Of a DNA stretch of 25,242 bases, positions 2,728-8,787 are shown in pieces. The position numbers and the translations under genes were made by a program. Numbering within the stretch: the first letter of the stretch is position 1; every line of letters starts with the position of its first letter. The notes below the pieces were generated by a model that was not told where the DNA came from, searched no databases, and saw only the letters and a program-made list of their open reading frames with translations. Source of the stretch: a virus; IMG/VR virus record IMGVR_UViG_3300027754_000403, positions 1 to 25,242 of that record, one strand, 5' to 3'.

Positions 2728-4524
2728 ATGACACCGCACCAACGTGCGGCCCTTTGGCTTTCCAAGGTGCCGCCAGCCGTCTCTGGCCAGTCCGGACACT
2801 CAACTACCTACACTGCCGCCGTCGGCCTCGTACACGGCTTCCAGCTCTCGGAGGGCGATGCTCTGGCCCTGCTCTCTAACTGGAATCAATACTGCCAACC
2901 ACCTTGGTCCGATCGCGAACTGACTCACAAACTCCGCGAGGCCGCTTCCAAGTCTCACTCCAAACCAGCCGGCCATCTCCTTCAGTCAGGGGTCTCCCCC
3001 TCAACCGCCCCCTTCGATATCACCAAGGTATCATTCAAGAGGCCGGTGACGGCCTCACCAACCACACCGCCCGATCCTCAAGCCAGCGAGTTCAAGCGGT
3101 TCCTTCAAGCCGCCTTCGCTGCCACCGAGGTGGTCTGCATCTGTGACGCGGTCGAAGATGGTAGGCCAGTCACTGCTGGATCATTCATCCCCGTTGAAGA
3201 TTGGATCGCCCGATTCGATGATCCGGCATCCCGCATCCTATCACCGGAACGCGAGGGGATCTTCGTTCGCATCAATCCTTTCCGGCCCAACCTCTACAGC
3301 GGCTCCGACAACGATGTCAGCGCGTATCGCCATGTCCTGGTGGAGTTCGATGACAAGCCCAAGGCTGAACAGGAGAAGCTATTCCGCGATTCGGGCCTCC
3401 CGATCACCGTACTCATCGATAGCGGTGGTAAGTCCATCCATGCCTGGGTCCGCGTAGATGCGCCCAATCGCAAGGAGTGGGACATCCGCCGGGATATCAT
3501 CTACAGCAGCATCCCGGGCATCGATGCCAAGAACAAGAACCCCTCGCGCTACTCCCGGCTCCCGGGCGCATGGCGTAGCCCTACCTCCCAACAGAAGCTG
3601 TTGGCCACTAACCTCGGCTCCGCTTCATGGGAGGATTACCTCACCTCCCGGGAAACCGATGATGATCAATCCACGGTGGTCTCGATCAAGGATCTCATAT
3701 CCTTCGATTCATCCAACGATCCGGACAACCTGATCGGCCAACGCTGGCTTACCCGCGGCTCCTCCATGATCGTCAGCGGTGGTACCGGGATCGGGAAGTC
3801 CAGCCTGATGATGCAGATCGTCATCCAGTGGGCACTCGGCAAGGACTTCTTCGGTATCGCCCCGGTGAAGCCCCTCAAGATCGGAGTCATCCAAGCCGAG
3901 AACGACAAGGGCGACCTCGCCGAGGCATTCCAAGGCGTAGGGTTCGGTCTCAACCTTAGCGGGGGCGACATGAAGATGCTCCAGCAACAGCTAGAGTTTA
4001 GGACCGAGGCCGTCCGTACCGGCGACCAGTTCCTCGCCTACGCCCGCCGCTTCATCCACAAATCCAAGCTCGATGTCATCGTGGCCGATCCTTTGTTCAG
4101 TTACTTCGGCGGTGATCTCAGCGACCAGGGCGAGGTCAGCGTGTTCTTGCGTAACAAACTCCAGCCCATCCTTCAAGAAACCAAGGTCGCTTGGATCTGG
4201 ATGCATCACATCTCCAAAGCCCAGCGCAAGGACGGTGAACCCATGACCACTATGGAACTCGCTCACGCCGGCTTCGGATCCTCGGAGCTTGCCAATTGGG
4301 CGCGTGAGATCGCGGTTCTGGCAGAGGTAGGCCAGTTCAAGCCTCGACGCTTCCAGCTAGCCTTCTGCAAGCGTGGAGGGCGGCTTCCCAAACCCATCAT
4401 CAACCTCCAGCACGGTACCGATCGAATCAAGTGGGAGGAATACAACCCGCTAGTCATCACCGGTGCCCAGCTCAAGGAGAAGAAACCGTTCAACAACAAG
4501 GCCAAGAGGAAAGACAGTATATGA
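2728..4524 (+). CDS. Primase-helicase fusion: PriCT-like, AEP primase-like and RecA-like ATPase
   Basis: This is likely the phage replication primase-helicase. Residues 1-85 (AALWLSKVPPAVSGQSGHST, LLSNWNQYCQPPWSDRELTH) resemble a PriCT-type segment. Residues about 130-300 resemble an archaeo-eukaryotic primase: VEFDDK at 205-210 supplies acidic metal ligands, SGGKSIHAW at 232-240 supplies the catalytic His, and NPSRYSRLPGAWR follows. Residues about 320-560 are a RecA-like ATPase: Walker A GGTGIGKSS at 351-359, Walker B VIVADP with D454, then a WMHHISK sensor-like segment. The protein would make RNA/DNA primers and unwind or load at the origin. The next gene overlaps its stop. No DNA polymerase is visible in the window. 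Confidence 0.88.
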   Translation: MTPHQRAALWLSKVPPAVSGQSGHSTTYTAAVGLVHGFQLSEGDALALLSNWNQYCQPPWSDRELTHKLREAASKSHSKPAGHLLQSGVSPSTAPFDITKVSFKRPVTASPTTPPDPQASEFKRFLQAAFAATEVVCICDAVEDGRPVTAGSFIPVEDWIARFDDPASRILSPEREGIFVRINPFRPNLYSGSDNDVSAYRHVLVEFDDKPKAEQEKLFRDSGLPITVLIDSGGKSIHAWVRVDAPNRKEWDIRRDIIYSSIPGIDAKNKNPSRYSRLPGAWRSPTSQQKLLATNLGSASWEDYLTSRETDDDQSTVVSIKDLISFDSSNDPDNLIGQRWLTRGSSMIVSGGTGIGKSSLMMQIVIQWALGKDFFGIAPVKPLKIGVIQAENDKGDLAEAFQGVGFGLNLSGGDMKMLQQQLEFRTEAVRTGDQFLAYARRFIHKSKLDVIVADPLFSYFGGDLSDQGEVSVFLRNKLQPILQETKVAWIWMHHISKAQRKDGEPMTTMELAHAGFGSSELANWAREIAVLAEVGQFKPRRFQLAFCKRGGRLPKPIINLQHGTDRIKWEEYNPLVITGAQLKEKKPFNNKAKRKDSI

Positions 4525-5136: not shown

Positions 5137-5763
5137 CTAGGAGAGCGTTTGATGCTCGGATGGAGTGTAGGGAGCGGAACCCCATTGATCGGCCATGGCG
5201 CGGGCGATGCCGGGATAGGTCTTGGAACGCTCCTTCCAGCGGGTTGGACTGGGACCGAGTTTGTTCTGGCCACTAGGGGTTTGATTGGCCCACCTACCGG
5301 ATGGCGGTAGCGGCAGGATGTCGGTGGGAACCAGCGGTGGAAGGTTCTTGAGCCAGAGACAGGTGCGCTTGCTCGCGTCATCTCCGAACTGATACGGCTG
5401 GATTATCTGAGTGGGTTTGCATATACGAGTGTTGATAGCACCTATTGGGTTCTCTATTGCTATACAGGGGACACCACTATTCATTAACAGATGGACGAAT
5501 GCCAGTGCTTCCTCGGTCAGCTTGGGGTCGCGAAGCCCCCGGGTAGTCCAGTGCATGCCGCTTCCACAGAGGTAGGTGCATGGCGGAAACGCGATCAACA
5601 TATCCCAGTGCTGCTTGAGAAGATCCCGCACATCACCGCGGTAATGCTGGCCCACCGTGTCCGACTCCTCGAAATCGCAGCTCCACGCATCCCAGCCTCG
5701 GGCCGCGAACTCATCGCGAACCCGGCCACTGTACTCACACGCAACAAGAACTCGGGGTTTCAT
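5137..5763 (-). CDS. Compact DNA cytosine-C5 methyltransferase-like protein, 208 aa
   Basis: The N-terminal SAM-binding pattern (RVLVACEYSGRVRDEF), the acidic CDF (29-31) and GDV (43-45) motifs, the catalytic FPPCTYLCGSG with Cys62, and an ENP motif (AIENPIGAINT) match the cytosine-C5 methyltransferase fold. The C-terminal SKTYPGIARAMADQW is typical of the phage version of this family. At 208 residues it is much shorter than restriction-type enzymes, with no obvious target-recognition domain. Likely roles are protection of phage DNA or base modification. Start ATG 5763 has a strong GGAGGAGG site and overlaps the upstream gene stop; an upstream in-frame start at 5802 is less likely. Confidence 0.8.
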   Translation of the reverse strand: MKPRVLVACEYSGRVRDEFAARGWDAWSCDFEESDTVGQHYRGDVRDLLKQHWDMLIAFPPCTYLCGSGMHWTTRGLRDPKLTEEALAFVHLLMNSGVPCIAIENPIGAINTRICKPTQIIQPYQFGDDASKRTCLWLKNLPPLVPTDILPLPPSGRWANQTPSGQNKLGPSPTRWKERSKTYPGIARAMADQWGSAPYTPSEHQTLS

Positions 5764-5921
5764 TGAACCTCCTCCGCTACCTCCACACTCAGGAACTCCC
5801 ACCCGTAGCGATGAGCATCCTCCTCAGCAGCCTCGCGGGCCTCGCTGATCGGTTCATGGTAGCTGAAGTCCTTCTCGATCTCTCCATCCGGCTTGCGGAA
5901 CGTGGCGACAATGCTGATCAC
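5760..5921 (-). CDS. Small hypothetical protein, 53 aa, GTG start
   Basis: The GTG start at 5921 is chosen because GGGAGGT lies 6 bases upstream and the GTG overlaps the previous stop (GTGA). A longer ATG frame (5954) would lack that site. The sequence reads as a two-strand, one-helix fold: SIVATFRKPDGEIEKDFSYH, then EAREAAEEDAHRYGWEFLSV. The family is not recognised. The stop overlaps the methyltransferase ATG, so the two are translationally coupled. Confidence 0.65.
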   Translation of the reverse strand: MISIVATFRKPDGEIEKDFSYHEPISEAREAAEEDAHRYGWEFLSVEVAEEVQ

Positions 5922-6220
5922 AGCGCACCTCCCTTGGAGGCCACTGCCTTCCATCCCGTGTACCGGGCATCGCAGTACACCAAGACATCGCAGACCGAAA
6001 CACCGGGCACCCGCACCACAACACCGAACGGACGCTTCTGGGTCCGAACCGCCACCATCCCAGCAGTCTCCGCAGACTTCCGCAGGTACTCGTCATACCC
6101 ACTCCAGTCCTCGTACTCACGCTCGTCCATCCACCTAGACTTGGCCTGCTGCACAGAACCGTTGATCTTGCTCGCGTAATCGCTGATCAGCGCGATCAGC
6201 TCTTCCTTGGTTTGTTTCAT
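5918..6220 (-). CDS. Hypothetical protein, 100 aa, first gene of leftward unit 1
   Basis: The N-terminus is helical (KQTKEELIALISDYASKING, then SRWMDEREYEDWSGYDEYLR). The C-terminal half looks beta-rich (AETAGMVAVRTQKRPFGVVV, VCDVLVYCDARYTGWKAV). No cysteine cluster or membrane segment is seen. It is the first gene of a three-gene leftward operon that ends with the methyltransferase. The region upstream of its ATG has a weak ribosome binding site but a candidate promoter at 6263-6292. Function unknown. Confidence 0.65.
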   Translation of the reverse strand: MKQTKEELIALISDYASKINGSVQQAKSRWMDEREYEDWSGYDEYLRKSAETAGMVAVRTQKRPFGVVVRVPGVSVCDVLVYCDARYTGWKAVASKGGAL

Positions 6221-6262
6221 ATCGTTCGTTGATTTACCACCGCTCCATGCGGCGATGGGGTG

Positions 6263-6292
6263 AACCTACCGCACCATGATCCTCCTCGTCAA
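6263..6292 (-). promoter_or_regulatory. Candidate sigma70-like promoter for leftward unit 1
   Basis: Read on the minus strand, TTGACG (6292-6287) is 18 bases from TAGGTT (6268-6263), followed 42 bases later by ATG 6220. The -35 hexamer matches consensus at 5 of 6 positions; the -10 is weak. It is plausible because leftward unit 2 ends at a terminator just upstream, so unit 1 needs its own promoter. Confidence 0.35.
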
Positions 6293-6347
6293 GGGGGAAT
6301 CTTTCATGGCATGGAGAAATCGCTGTACCCCGATTCCCGATTCTGGG

Positions 6348-6367
6348 ATTCCGAATTCCGAATTCCG
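6348..6367. repeat. Short tandem repeat, unit ATTCCGA x3
   Basis: ATTCCGA is repeated almost three times in tandem, after two looser copies (GATTCCCGATTC) immediately upstream. It resembles short intergenic spacer repeats of the GAATTC type that occur in many bacterial genomes. A role as an iteron or spacer is unknown. Confidence 0.6.
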
Positions 6368-6459
6368 TATGGCGTATGGAGAATCTGGAATACCGCACCA
6401 TGAGGTTCCGGGGTTGGGGGGCGCACATGGGCTTCGCGTGGGCGGCACATGAGGTCCGC

Positions 6460-6479
6460 GGGCGGGCGACGGGGGGGGG
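6460..6479 (+). other. Potential G-quadruplex run
   Basis: On the + strand, GGGCGGGCGAC is followed by nine Gs. Four GGG tracts with loops of 1-4 bases can be drawn. Another G-rich block (GGGGTTGGGGGG) lies at 6410-6421. The formation potential is read from sequence only. Confidence 0.45.
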
Positions 6480-6480
6480 C

Positions 6481-6528
6481 GGACACGGGATGTCCAATGC
6501 CAATAGAGGGGTCGGACATTCGATGTCC
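6481..6528. promoter_or_regulatory. Two dyad-symmetric sites GGACA-N5-TGTCC, candidate operators
   Basis: GGACA-CGGGA-TGTCC (6481-6495) and GGACA-TTCGA-TGTCC (6514-6528; the arms extend to GGACAT/ATGTCC) have identical arms and spacing. Their starts are 33 bp apart, about three helical turns. This is typical of cooperative binding by a dimeric regulator. A related dyad, GGGTGT-CC-ACACCC, is at 6640-6653. They lie upstream of leftward unit 1. Confidence 0.5.
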
Positions 6529-6663
6529 TAGGGGGGATCCTGGTGGGCTAGTGTTAAATCGAAAGTGACCAGTGACAAGGAAGGAAGGAACCACACACAA
6601 GGGGATCGATTGGCCAACTAGGAAGGAAAGCGGCAAGCGGGGTGTCCACACCCTCGGGGCAAC

Positions 6664-6692
6664 AAAAAGCCCGTAGGGGTGAACCTACGGGG
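6664..6692 (-). terminator. Intrinsic terminator of leftward unit 2
   Basis: On the minus strand, stem CCCGTAGG with CCTACGGG (8 perfect pairs, 6-base loop) is followed at once by CTTTTTG. This is a textbook Rho-independent terminator, placed 20 bases downstream of the stop of the last leftward gene of unit 2. Confidence 0.8.
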
Positions 6693-6711
6693 CGGGGTGA
6701 GTGGATTGGGA

Positions 6712-6807
6712 TTATCTACCGTTTCCTGCGAGGGCCGAGAGGACTAAGAGCAAAGTAAACAGCAGGCAAAGTCCGAGGTAACCTAGGACGCGAAGGAGGG
6801 GTTTCAA
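6712..6807 (-). CDS. Tiny membrane peptide, 31 aa, TTG start
   Basis: The TTG start at 6807 overlaps the TGA of the preceding gene (TTGA) and is preceded by GGGAGGA at a good distance. The 31 residues read MKPLLRVLGYLGLCLLFTLL followed by LVLSALAGNGR: a short basic N-terminus and one hydrophobic helix. It is therefore probably a single-span inner-membrane peptide. It is the last gene of unit 2, just before the terminator. Overlap, ribosome binding site and composition together support it despite its length. Holin-like, toxin-like or superinfection functions are possible; none is shown. Confidence 0.6.
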   Translation of the reverse strand: MKPLLRVLGYLGLCLLFTLLLVLSALAGNGR

Positions 6808-7067
6808 AGCTTCCTCCCATCGATGACGTCCACCCGATACTTCATACCGGGCTTTGTGACCAACTCACGCACACCGTCCCAGCATGGCGCACACATCGCC
6901 CGCACGGTGGCGCATTTTCCCGTCTCGTTTTCCCACACGGAAAATTCAACGGCGCGACGATAGTCCATAAGGTTTTCACAGCGTGGGCAAAAAATCGCCC
7001 GCCCCACGGATGCTTTCAGGCTTTGCTTGTCGGAGCTGCGTTTAAAGGTTTCTATAATGTCTCTCAT
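6804..7067 (-). CDS. Small zinc-ribbon-like protein, 87 aa
   Basis: The CPRC motif (AIFCPRCENLMDYRRAVEF) and a CAPC motif (RAMCAPCWDGVREL) make a four-cysteine site separated by about 30 residues of beta-like sequence, the layout of a zinc ribbon. The protein would bind zinc and perhaps nucleic acid or protein. It starts 4 bases after the stop of the preceding gene with no clear Shine-Dalgarno. Its stop overlaps the tiny membrane peptide start. No family name is given. Confidence 0.7.
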   Translation of the reverse strand: MRDIIETFKRSSDKQSLKASVGRAIFCPRCENLMDYRRAVEFSVWENETGKCATVRAMCAPCWDGVRELVTKPGMKYRVDVIDGRKL

Positions 7068-7071
7068 AAGC

Positions 7072-7392
7072 TTAAAAATTACGGATGATCACGCCGTTTT
7101 CCCACACCCGAACGCAGTCCGTGCGGTTCATGAGCCATTCAATTGGGTGCTCATCTTTGGAGTCCACACCGTCAATGAAACCGTAATCCGTTGCCGCGGC
7201 AAGGGCCGTGGGATACTCGGCCCACTCACAGCACAGGGCTATGGGGTCAAGGGTGAGTTCCGTGTCCGTGTCATCCTCCACCCTTTCAAGGTGCTCGAAG
7301 AGTGCCCGCAGGGCGTGGTAGCTAAACTGCGATTCCCGCCCGCAGGCACGGAAAGCTTCAACGAATGAGTTCTGTGTGATGATGGTTTTCAT
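7072..7392 (-). CDS. Conserved phage-type hypothetical protein, 106 aa
   Basis: The ATG at 7392 begins MKTIITQNSFVEAFRACGRE, a start seen in small proteins common in phages and plasmids (pattern FxxAFxxxGRxxQFSYxxLxALFxHLE, then acidic residues and an ALCCEWAEY motif). The function of that family is not known to me. A longer in-frame start at 7596 would overlap the preceding gene by 140 bases and is rejected. The 64-base gap upstream has a GGGCA-TCAAT-TGCCC stem (7405-7419) close to the start, which could affect translation. Confidence 0.75.
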   Translation of the reverse strand: MKTIITQNSFVEAFRACGRESQFSYHALRALFEHLERVEDDTDTELTLDPIALCCEWAEYPTALAAATDYGFIDGVDSKDEHPIEWLMNRTDCVRVWENGVIIRNF

Positions 7393-7456
7393 GATGGTTT
7401 GTGAGGGCATCAATTGCCCGTGCAACCTACCGTTTCCGATAGGCTGACCGGAGAAT

Positions 7457-8149
7457 TCAGGCTTCAATGAAATGGACTGAACCGTTTCCGTGGGGTGGAA
7501 TGTAAACGGACTCGAGACCATTACGGTTCCCGGCGCATAGTTGACACACGGAACATGGGGTACCGATGCGATCGCTGGCGCAAAGGGATTCACCAACGGA
7601 AGCCTCGGAACCCACGCGAAAGGTTGACCAGCCCATTGACCGAGCGATGACTAGTTGCGCCACCGAGTCAACGCTGGCCATCAAAAGCGAACGCCACGCT
7701 TGGAGTGATGGCTTGCGCCATTGGTGTGTGTAGCCGGTGTGACCGGAAGCCACACCAGCGATCGCAAGCGCAAGGGGAAGGGGGATCCATGTGGGATCGC
7801 CGTAGGCTCCGAAGCGGACTTTCCTACCAACGAAGCATTCAAGGGATCGAAGCAAGGGGTAGTTGCCCGCTTTCCATGCCCTCCAGATTCCCTGCGGAGC
7901 CTGCCCGGGATTCACATAGCATGTCCTTTCCACACCGTGTTTGCCGTCAACCTCGTGACCGCGATGCATGCAGTTGCCGCAGATAAGCCGATCCAAGCCC
8001 GTGCGGATTGCTTCGGTAGGGCTCACAGAACGGACTAGAATCCAGATCTGGATCATGTCGCCGGTTTTCCGGTTGTCGCTGGGGTGATTGAAGCCCGTGG
8101 CGATGATAACGCGGTGCTGGTCTTCGTGGAGGATGAAACCGTTGTTCAT
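7457..8149 (-). CDS. Conserved phage hypothetical protein with cysteine clusters, 230 aa
   Basis: This resembles a conserved protein found in many phages, with KTGDMIQIWILVRSVSPTEA, CGNCMHRG, CYVNPGQAPQGIWRAWKAG, RKVRFGAYGDPTWIPLPLA and SGHTGYTHQW in that order. Cysteines occur in two groups, CGNC (about 59-62) and CSVCQLC (about 200-206), which may bind zinc or an iron-sulfur cluster. Biochemical function is unknown to me. The ATG at 8149 has GGGGGTG 7 bases upstream and overlaps the preceding stop. It is the largest gene of leftward unit 2. Confidence 0.8.
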   Translation of the reverse strand: MNNGFILHEDQHRVIIATGFNHPSDNRKTGDMIQIWILVRSVSPTEAIRTGLDRLICGNCMHRGHEVDGKHGVERTCYVNPGQAPQGIWRAWKAGNYPLLRSLECFVGRKVRFGAYGDPTWIPLPLALAIAGVASGHTGYTHQWRKPSLQAWRSLLMASVDSVAQLVIARSMGWSTFRVGSEASVGESLCASDRIGTPCSVCQLCAGNRNGLESVYIPPHGNGSVHFIEA

Positions 8150-8259: not shown

Positions 8260-8349
8260 GATTTGAGAGGGAACCAATGATCGGTTCACGGGAGGAGAGT
8301 GCAACGGTTCACGAGAGGAGTCAACGCTGGAATACAAGAGAATGAGAAA
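8260..8349. promoter_or_regulatory. Divergent control region with 16-bp direct repeats
   Basis: This region separates leftward unit 2 from the rightward packaging genes. CGGTTCACGGGAGGAG (8282-8297) and CGGTTCACGAGAGGAG (8305-8320) differ at one base and are 23 bp apart. GAACC-N7-GGTTC (8271-8287) forms a dyad overlapping the first copy. GGTTCAC half-sites also occur on the other strand at 6261 and 6680. No clear -10/-35 pair was found on either strand. Confidence 0.45.
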
Positions 8350-8787
8350 ATGCTATCGGGGGTGATGAAAGCGAAAGGGAGCGGTGACCTGGTGAAGGTG
8401 AGGATGAGGGCAAAGCCTGAGAGGGGCACTAAAATGGTCCTGTCACCCGATACAAAAAACAAGGCGATGGAAGCGGCCAGGTACGGCATGCCGCTTGAAC
8501 GCATCGCGATGCTGTGCGGGTTTTCGTCAAGCGAGACACAATGGTCCAGGTGGATTAACGCCAACCCGGCGTTCAGGAAGGAGCTTGATCAAGCGAGGGC
8601 TGAGGGTGAGTTGCTGCTGCAAAGGAAGATCATGAGCGGTGAAGCCAATTGGCAAGCGGCGGGGTGGATGCTCGAACGCACCCGCGGTTACGTAGCAAGG
8701 GCTTCACTCGAACATACAGGTAAAGGTGGCAAAGAGTTATCGGTTAGTGGCAATCTCCTTGGTGCCTTTGGTGGGCAATCTAAATAG
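8350..8787 (+). CDS. Putative small terminase subunit, 145 aa
   Basis: Immediately upstream of the large terminase gene, this protein has a helix-turn-helix-like N-terminal part (NKAMEAARYGMPLERIAMLC, then GFSSSETQWSRWI), a charged helical middle (ELDQARAEGELLLQRKIMSG) and a C-terminal tail with HTGKGGKELSVSG. This is the usual layout of small terminases, which bind the packaging site and activate the large subunit. ATG 8350 is chosen; ATG 8365 or GTG 8299 (2 bases after GGAGGAGA) are alternatives, so the N-terminus is uncertain. A spacer of 122 bases follows. Confidence 0.7.
   Translation: MLSGVMKAKGSGDLVKVRMRAKPERGTKMVLSPDTKNKAMEAARYGMPLERIAMLCGFSSSETQWSRWINANPAFRKELDQARAEGELLLQRKIMSGEANWQAAGWMLERTRGYVARASLEHTGKGGKELSVSGNLLGAFGGQSK

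Follow-up and report, generated by a model that had tools for sequence, protein, structure and literature searches.

Paired GGACA-N5-TGTCC dyads in a freshwater phage family are candidate operators of a host WYL-domain defence regulator

A phage belonging to a widespread freshwater family carries two copies of the dyad GGACA-N5-TGTCC before a leftward gene cassette. These dyads are strongly conserved putative DNA-binding sites, not RNA hairpins. The same palindrome recurs upstream of WYL-domain regulator genes and defence genes of Verrucomicrobiota, and we propose that the phage dyads are operators of a dimeric winged helix-turn-helix (HTH) regulator, for which a host WYL-domain protein of the BrxR/CapW/DriD type is the best-supported identity, an assignment that we regard as evenly balanced. 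More tentatively, and leaning slightly to the doubtful side, the phage family may practise operator mimicry, carrying the operators of a host defence regulator before an anti-restriction cassette so that one infection signal switches both, or so that the regulator is titrated.

In the window, by which we mean the whole stretch of 25,242 bp that was analysed, the two identical-arm dyads reported by the first-pass annotation are both exact and lie 33 bp apart from start to start (Table 1). They are the only GGACA-N5-TGTCC sites in the record, even with one mismatch allowed, and stand above chance, with about 0.03 exact matches expected per window in a first-order Markov simulation. Pairs of 5-N5-5 dyads that share their arms and lie 15–60 bp apart did not occur in 200 simulations, and the window has exactly one. 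The full unit exceeds the earlier description: the palindrome has 6-bp arms, GGACAY-NNN-RTGTCC, and the minus-strand profile built from 110 distinct sites reads T-n-GGACAY-NNN-RTGTCC-n-ACCCC, with an extension that is directional. The further dyad GGGTGT-CC-ACACCC, which had been called related, is where it was said to be, but it is poorly conserved and probably lies outside the paired-dyad system.

Table 1. Features of the dyad region and the leftward cassette in the window.
Feature	Position	Strand	Basis or remark
Dyad 1 (leftmost), GGACACGGGATGTCC	6481..6495		Exact match; kept in relatives
Dyad 2, GGACATTCGATGTCC	6514..6528		Exact match; PWM score 30.8, the record's best site
Putative paired operator unit, including directional nACCCC extension (GGGGT on + strand)	6476..6533	-	25-bp profile, 110 distinct sites
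GGGTGTCCACACCC dyad	6640..6653		Poorly conserved, 8/73 relatives
Intrinsic terminator of upstream leftward operon (6712-8149)	6670..6691	-	Places the dyads between two leftward transcription units
First ORF of leftward cassette, 100 aa	5918..6220	-	No assigned function
Cassette DNA methyltransferase, phrog_757	5137..5802	-	C5-methyltransferase, Mom or other genes instead in relatives
Sigma70-like promoter TTGACG-N17-GTAGGT before leftward cassette	6264..6292	-	Sequence; not scored by strict scan
7-bp repeat array CCATACG-CCATACG-GAATTCG-GAATTCG, between dyads and promoter	6350..6379	-	Conserved

Searches that used the neighbouring proteins and the paired dyad pattern gathered more than 100 related contigs, mostly from metagenomic viruses, whose genomes share their gene order and are circularly permuted. 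Over 113 distinct sites, mean pairwise identity is 0.87 in the arms and 0.75 in the six bases after them, against 0.34–0.36 in the flanks, so the dyads are indeed kept while their surroundings diverge. In each of 14 records they mark a single locus, except that some have a further copy in terS; elsewhere in those records there are scattered one-mismatch matches at about the control frequency. Palindromic form, conserved arms between divergent flanks and the lack of covariation support the earlier suggestion of a binding site for a dimeric regulator. The suggestion of cooperative binding across three helical turns fared worse: paired dyads start 24, 25, 27, 29, 33, 45 or 46 bp apart among relatives, and at the scoring threshold only one dyad is seen at 22 of 73 distinct loci. 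Fixed helical phasing is ruled out by this variable spacing.

The dyads sit between two leftward transcription units, because the operon upstream of them ends in the terminator listed in Table 1. The cassette on the other side is preceded by a sigma70-like promoter some 190 bp away from the dyads. A TTGACG/GGTGC pattern for this promoter is matched in 26 of 73 relatives, and a strict sigma70 scan over 6150-6850 returned no promoter. From the dyads to the 3' end of the primase gene the relatives are hypervariable, with a phrog_757 methyltransferase, a C5-cytosine methyltransferase (PF00145), Mom (PF25680), a metallophosphoesterase and small ORFs as interchangeable genes. The cassette is exchangeable and rich in DNA-modification genes, and we read it as anti-restriction.

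Several other features of the region are worth recording. A 31-aa hydrophobic ORF at 6712-6807 on the minus strand, MKPLLRVLGYLGLCLLFTLLLVLSALAGNGR, is conserved in all relatives examined and is probably a real small membrane protein. In many relatives (for example L004, L012 and L092) the variable filler downstream of the dyads contains a palindromic insert, CATCCCGAAATCTGTTTCGGGATCATC, that resembles a mobile REP-type sequence. TerS (8299-8787 in the window) is a mosaic among relatives, two HTH types being joined to a near-invariant C-terminal half, and in some terS genes a dyad-like site falls within the stretch that encodes the N-terminal part.

The host phylum is likely Verrucomicrobiota, because the nearest isolates by TerL are Akkermansia phages, at about 35% TerL identity, and because a contig with 93% TerL identity and the dyads was found in a Verrucomicrobiota metagenome-assembled genome (MAG). 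Related contigs also occur in two Chloroflexota MAGs, and MAG binning is unreliable. Among the closest isolate phages, Chantilly is without the site and DTMo-2021a has one whose surroundings are different; direct DNA comparison with annotated phages gave no useful match. The candidate host MAG (G015; L411, L431-L440) contains 33 GGACA-N5-TGTCC sites. Many of these are embedded in a longer palindrome, GGGACCATGGACA-GCGGT-TGTCCTAGGTCCC, that is nearly the same from copy to copy and lies a short way ahead of likely gene starts; it looks like a dispersed element or a gene-family leader. Upstream of this MAG's own DriD-like WYL gene there is no such site.

Taken alone, the 15-mer palindrome occurs near control level in 195 Verrucomicrobiota genomes, and it becomes informative only with the context of a -10 box or a WYL gene added. 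Several intergenic matches keep a fixed distance to a -10 box, and the composite pattern GACAT-N3-ATGTC-N10-14-TATANT has 28 matches in 289 genomes, compared with 0 for the reversed control. The gap from ATGTC to the -10 box is exactly 13 nt in 20 of 25 hand-listed distinct cellular sites, and a gene for a WYL-domain regulator lies beside the dyad at five of the composite-pattern loci. In an unbiased test, every four-base arm (256 in all) was combined with spacers of 2–9 and counted upstream of WYL genes (mean count 0.23). GACA-N5-TGTC ranked first of these 2048 palindromes, standing before 16 of 56 non-identical Verrucomicrobiota WYL genes, as it had before 7 of 28 in a first, smaller set. 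The matches span divergent WYL proteins and both AT-rich and GC-rich genomes, with the limit that some of the sequences are close relatives and not independent.

Genes at dyad promoters in this phylum include those of defence: Cas12b, HmaA, a type IIG restriction-modification methylase and HSDR_N, with AAA proteins that have weak IetA-like matches and ADP-ribosylglycohydrolase/HD proteins as further neighbours. The GC-rich genome G035 has only two GGACA-N5-TGTCC sites, one before a WYL gene and the other upstream of a Cas3g gene. We therefore put forward, from sequence patterns, a candidate phylum-wide defence regulon under WYL control, with dyad-N13-TATANT promoters or GGACA-N5-TGTCC sites. 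Its candidate loci are L328, L332, L306/L330, L307/L338, L336, L337, L343, L347 and L424. No relevant published mention of GGACAT/ATGTCC palindromes turned up in the literature searched.

The phage dyads thus share with BrxR-, CapW- and DriD-type operators a palindrome of about 15–27 bp suited to a dimer, and share their sequence with sites at WYL genes and defence operons of the candidate host phylum. Two other hallmarks of such operators are missing from the phages. There is no WYL gene in cis: PF13280 was found in none of 13 phage records, nor did a sensitive six-frame search find it. And the dyads show no overlap with a recognised -10 or -35 box, the phages having no consistent -10 box at the cellular spacing and the strict scan no promoter in the region, which means either that the mode of action differs or that promoter control is not involved. 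The dyad is also a common type. Paired copies occur at 79 of 106 fetched viral loci outside this phage family, and viral contigs hold 108 stretches with paired dyads and 2 with the reversed pattern, making the former more than 50-fold commoner. We hold the WYL assignment at even balance because several unrelated regulators may use the same dyad type. The viral paired-dyad loci themselves (L156-L261) are varied: coding repeats contain some of them, others lie close to terminase genes, and others again surround TTGACG promoters.

Should the binder be a host WYL regulator, a protein that senses phage or DNA damage in its characterised relatives, it would act at the phage dyads upon infection, and the counter-defence cassette would thereby be switched in step with host defence. 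As an alternative or in addition, replicating phage copies could titrate the regulator. We infer the binding by a WYL regulator, the sign of its effect and the promoter through which it would act. What the comparison does supply is a phage non-coding element linked by sequence to a cellular defence regulon, which, if the reading is true, would be a tangible instance of a phage turning a WYL defence regulator to its own use. GGACA-N5-TGTCC would then be the operator motif of a Verrucomicrobiota defence regulon that includes Cas12b, Hma and restriction-modification genes, and the operators would also flag a counter-defence cassette site that can be mined for new anti-restriction genes.

The dyads could instead serve a regulator of the leftward cassette that the phage itself encodes, most likely one of the HTH proteins of 877-1125 or 1139-1690, in which case the resemblance to WYL operators would be convergence. 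We consider this somewhat unlikely. All 9 near-complete relatives examined carry both HTH genes, the motif does not change across the phage family, which is what a co-inherited regulator would lead one to expect, and similar paired dyads are found in unrelated phages too. However, in the most distant record (G009) the two HTH proteins are only 45% and 38% identical while the site is unchanged, neither HTH gene has a dyad site nearby, and the taxonomic and functional coincidence with the motif of WYL genes and defence operons is left unexplained. The C-terminal half of the 1139-1690 protein we take, by eye, to resemble the RNA polymerase alpha CTD; Pfam gave no support for this likeness, and the AlphaFold model of the protein is poor (pLDDT 61).

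That the dyads bind a replication initiator at the phage origin is a less probable reading, and quite unlikely in our judgement, although it is compatible with the operator reading and does not exclude it. The cumulative GC-skew minimum, raw or detrended, falls 0.1–1.5 kb from the dyads in 10 of 10 records, a primase-helicase gene is nearby (2728-4524), and there is one dyad cluster per genome. The skew minimum falls there though the genes on both sides of the dyads are mostly rightward. As evidence for an origin its location is suggestive only, because the ten records are related, and skew also tracks local gene arrangement. Replication-initiator iterons, which the first-pass annotation had offered as an alternative, are not supported as such: there are 1–3 dyads at spacings of 24–46 bp with no fixed period, instead of a regular array. 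The local GC content is 0.58 at 6001-6600, which is not AT-rich as an unwinding element would be, and in some relatives a second copy of the dyad falls inside the TerS coding sequence.

This copy, in the 5' part of terS, and the position of terS about 1.8 kb from the dyads are what could be said for a pac site recognised by the small terminase, a reading that we think very improbable. Neither the window nor most complete records have the terS copy, and a pac site would be expected to vary with its binder, whereas two TerS HTH types (for example in the window and in G001) coexist with the same dyads; TerS was rejected as the dyad binder on this ground. Least probable, and close to negligible, is that the dyads are chance palindromes or act in RNA as hairpins or terminators. 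A 6-bp stem closed by a triloop could fold from the arms, but Watson-Crick pairing at the innermost position is seen in 48% of sites compared with 58% expected under column independence, Rfam gave no match, chance predicts 0.03 sites, and we favour a DNA site over an RNA hairpin or terminator because base-pair covariation across the arms is lacking.

Returning to operators of a host WYL regulator, the nearest known systems are the BrxR/CapW repressors of phage-defence operons (PMC9122601, PMC9122589, PMC9122588). The palindromes bound by CapW and BrxR are about 20 bp long or longer, and infection lifts the repression that CapW exerts (PMC9122588, PMC9122601). The likeness lies in a dimer-bound palindromic operator at defence operons, directly upstream of the WYL gene in the Verrucomicrobiota examined, with single or paired units tolerated. 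The details of the sites differ, BrxR having 10-11-bp repeats with a 5-bp spacer and the operators here a core of GGACA-N5-TGTCC. The setting differs too: the operators described here are carried by a phage genome that lacks a WYL gene, and they adjoin a counter-restriction cassette.

Other WYL proteins, DriD of Caulobacter and PafBC, are activators that respond to single-stranded DNA or DNA damage (PMC12340889, PMC11804915), and CapW, BrxR and DriD all change activity upon infection or DNA damage (PMC9122588, PMC9122601, PMC12340889). The DriD dyad overlaps the -35 box at a fixed distance from the -10 box, like the cellular dyad-N13-TATANT promoters of Verrucomicrobiota; its consensus, ATACGAC-N7-GTCGTAT, is different, and the phage dyads have no -10 box at that distance. 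The LexA motif of Verrucomicrobiota, TGTTC-N4-GAACA, is unlike the phage dyads. Some phages place their own genes under host LexA, and they likewise use the operator of a host stress regulator, with a regulator of a different family.
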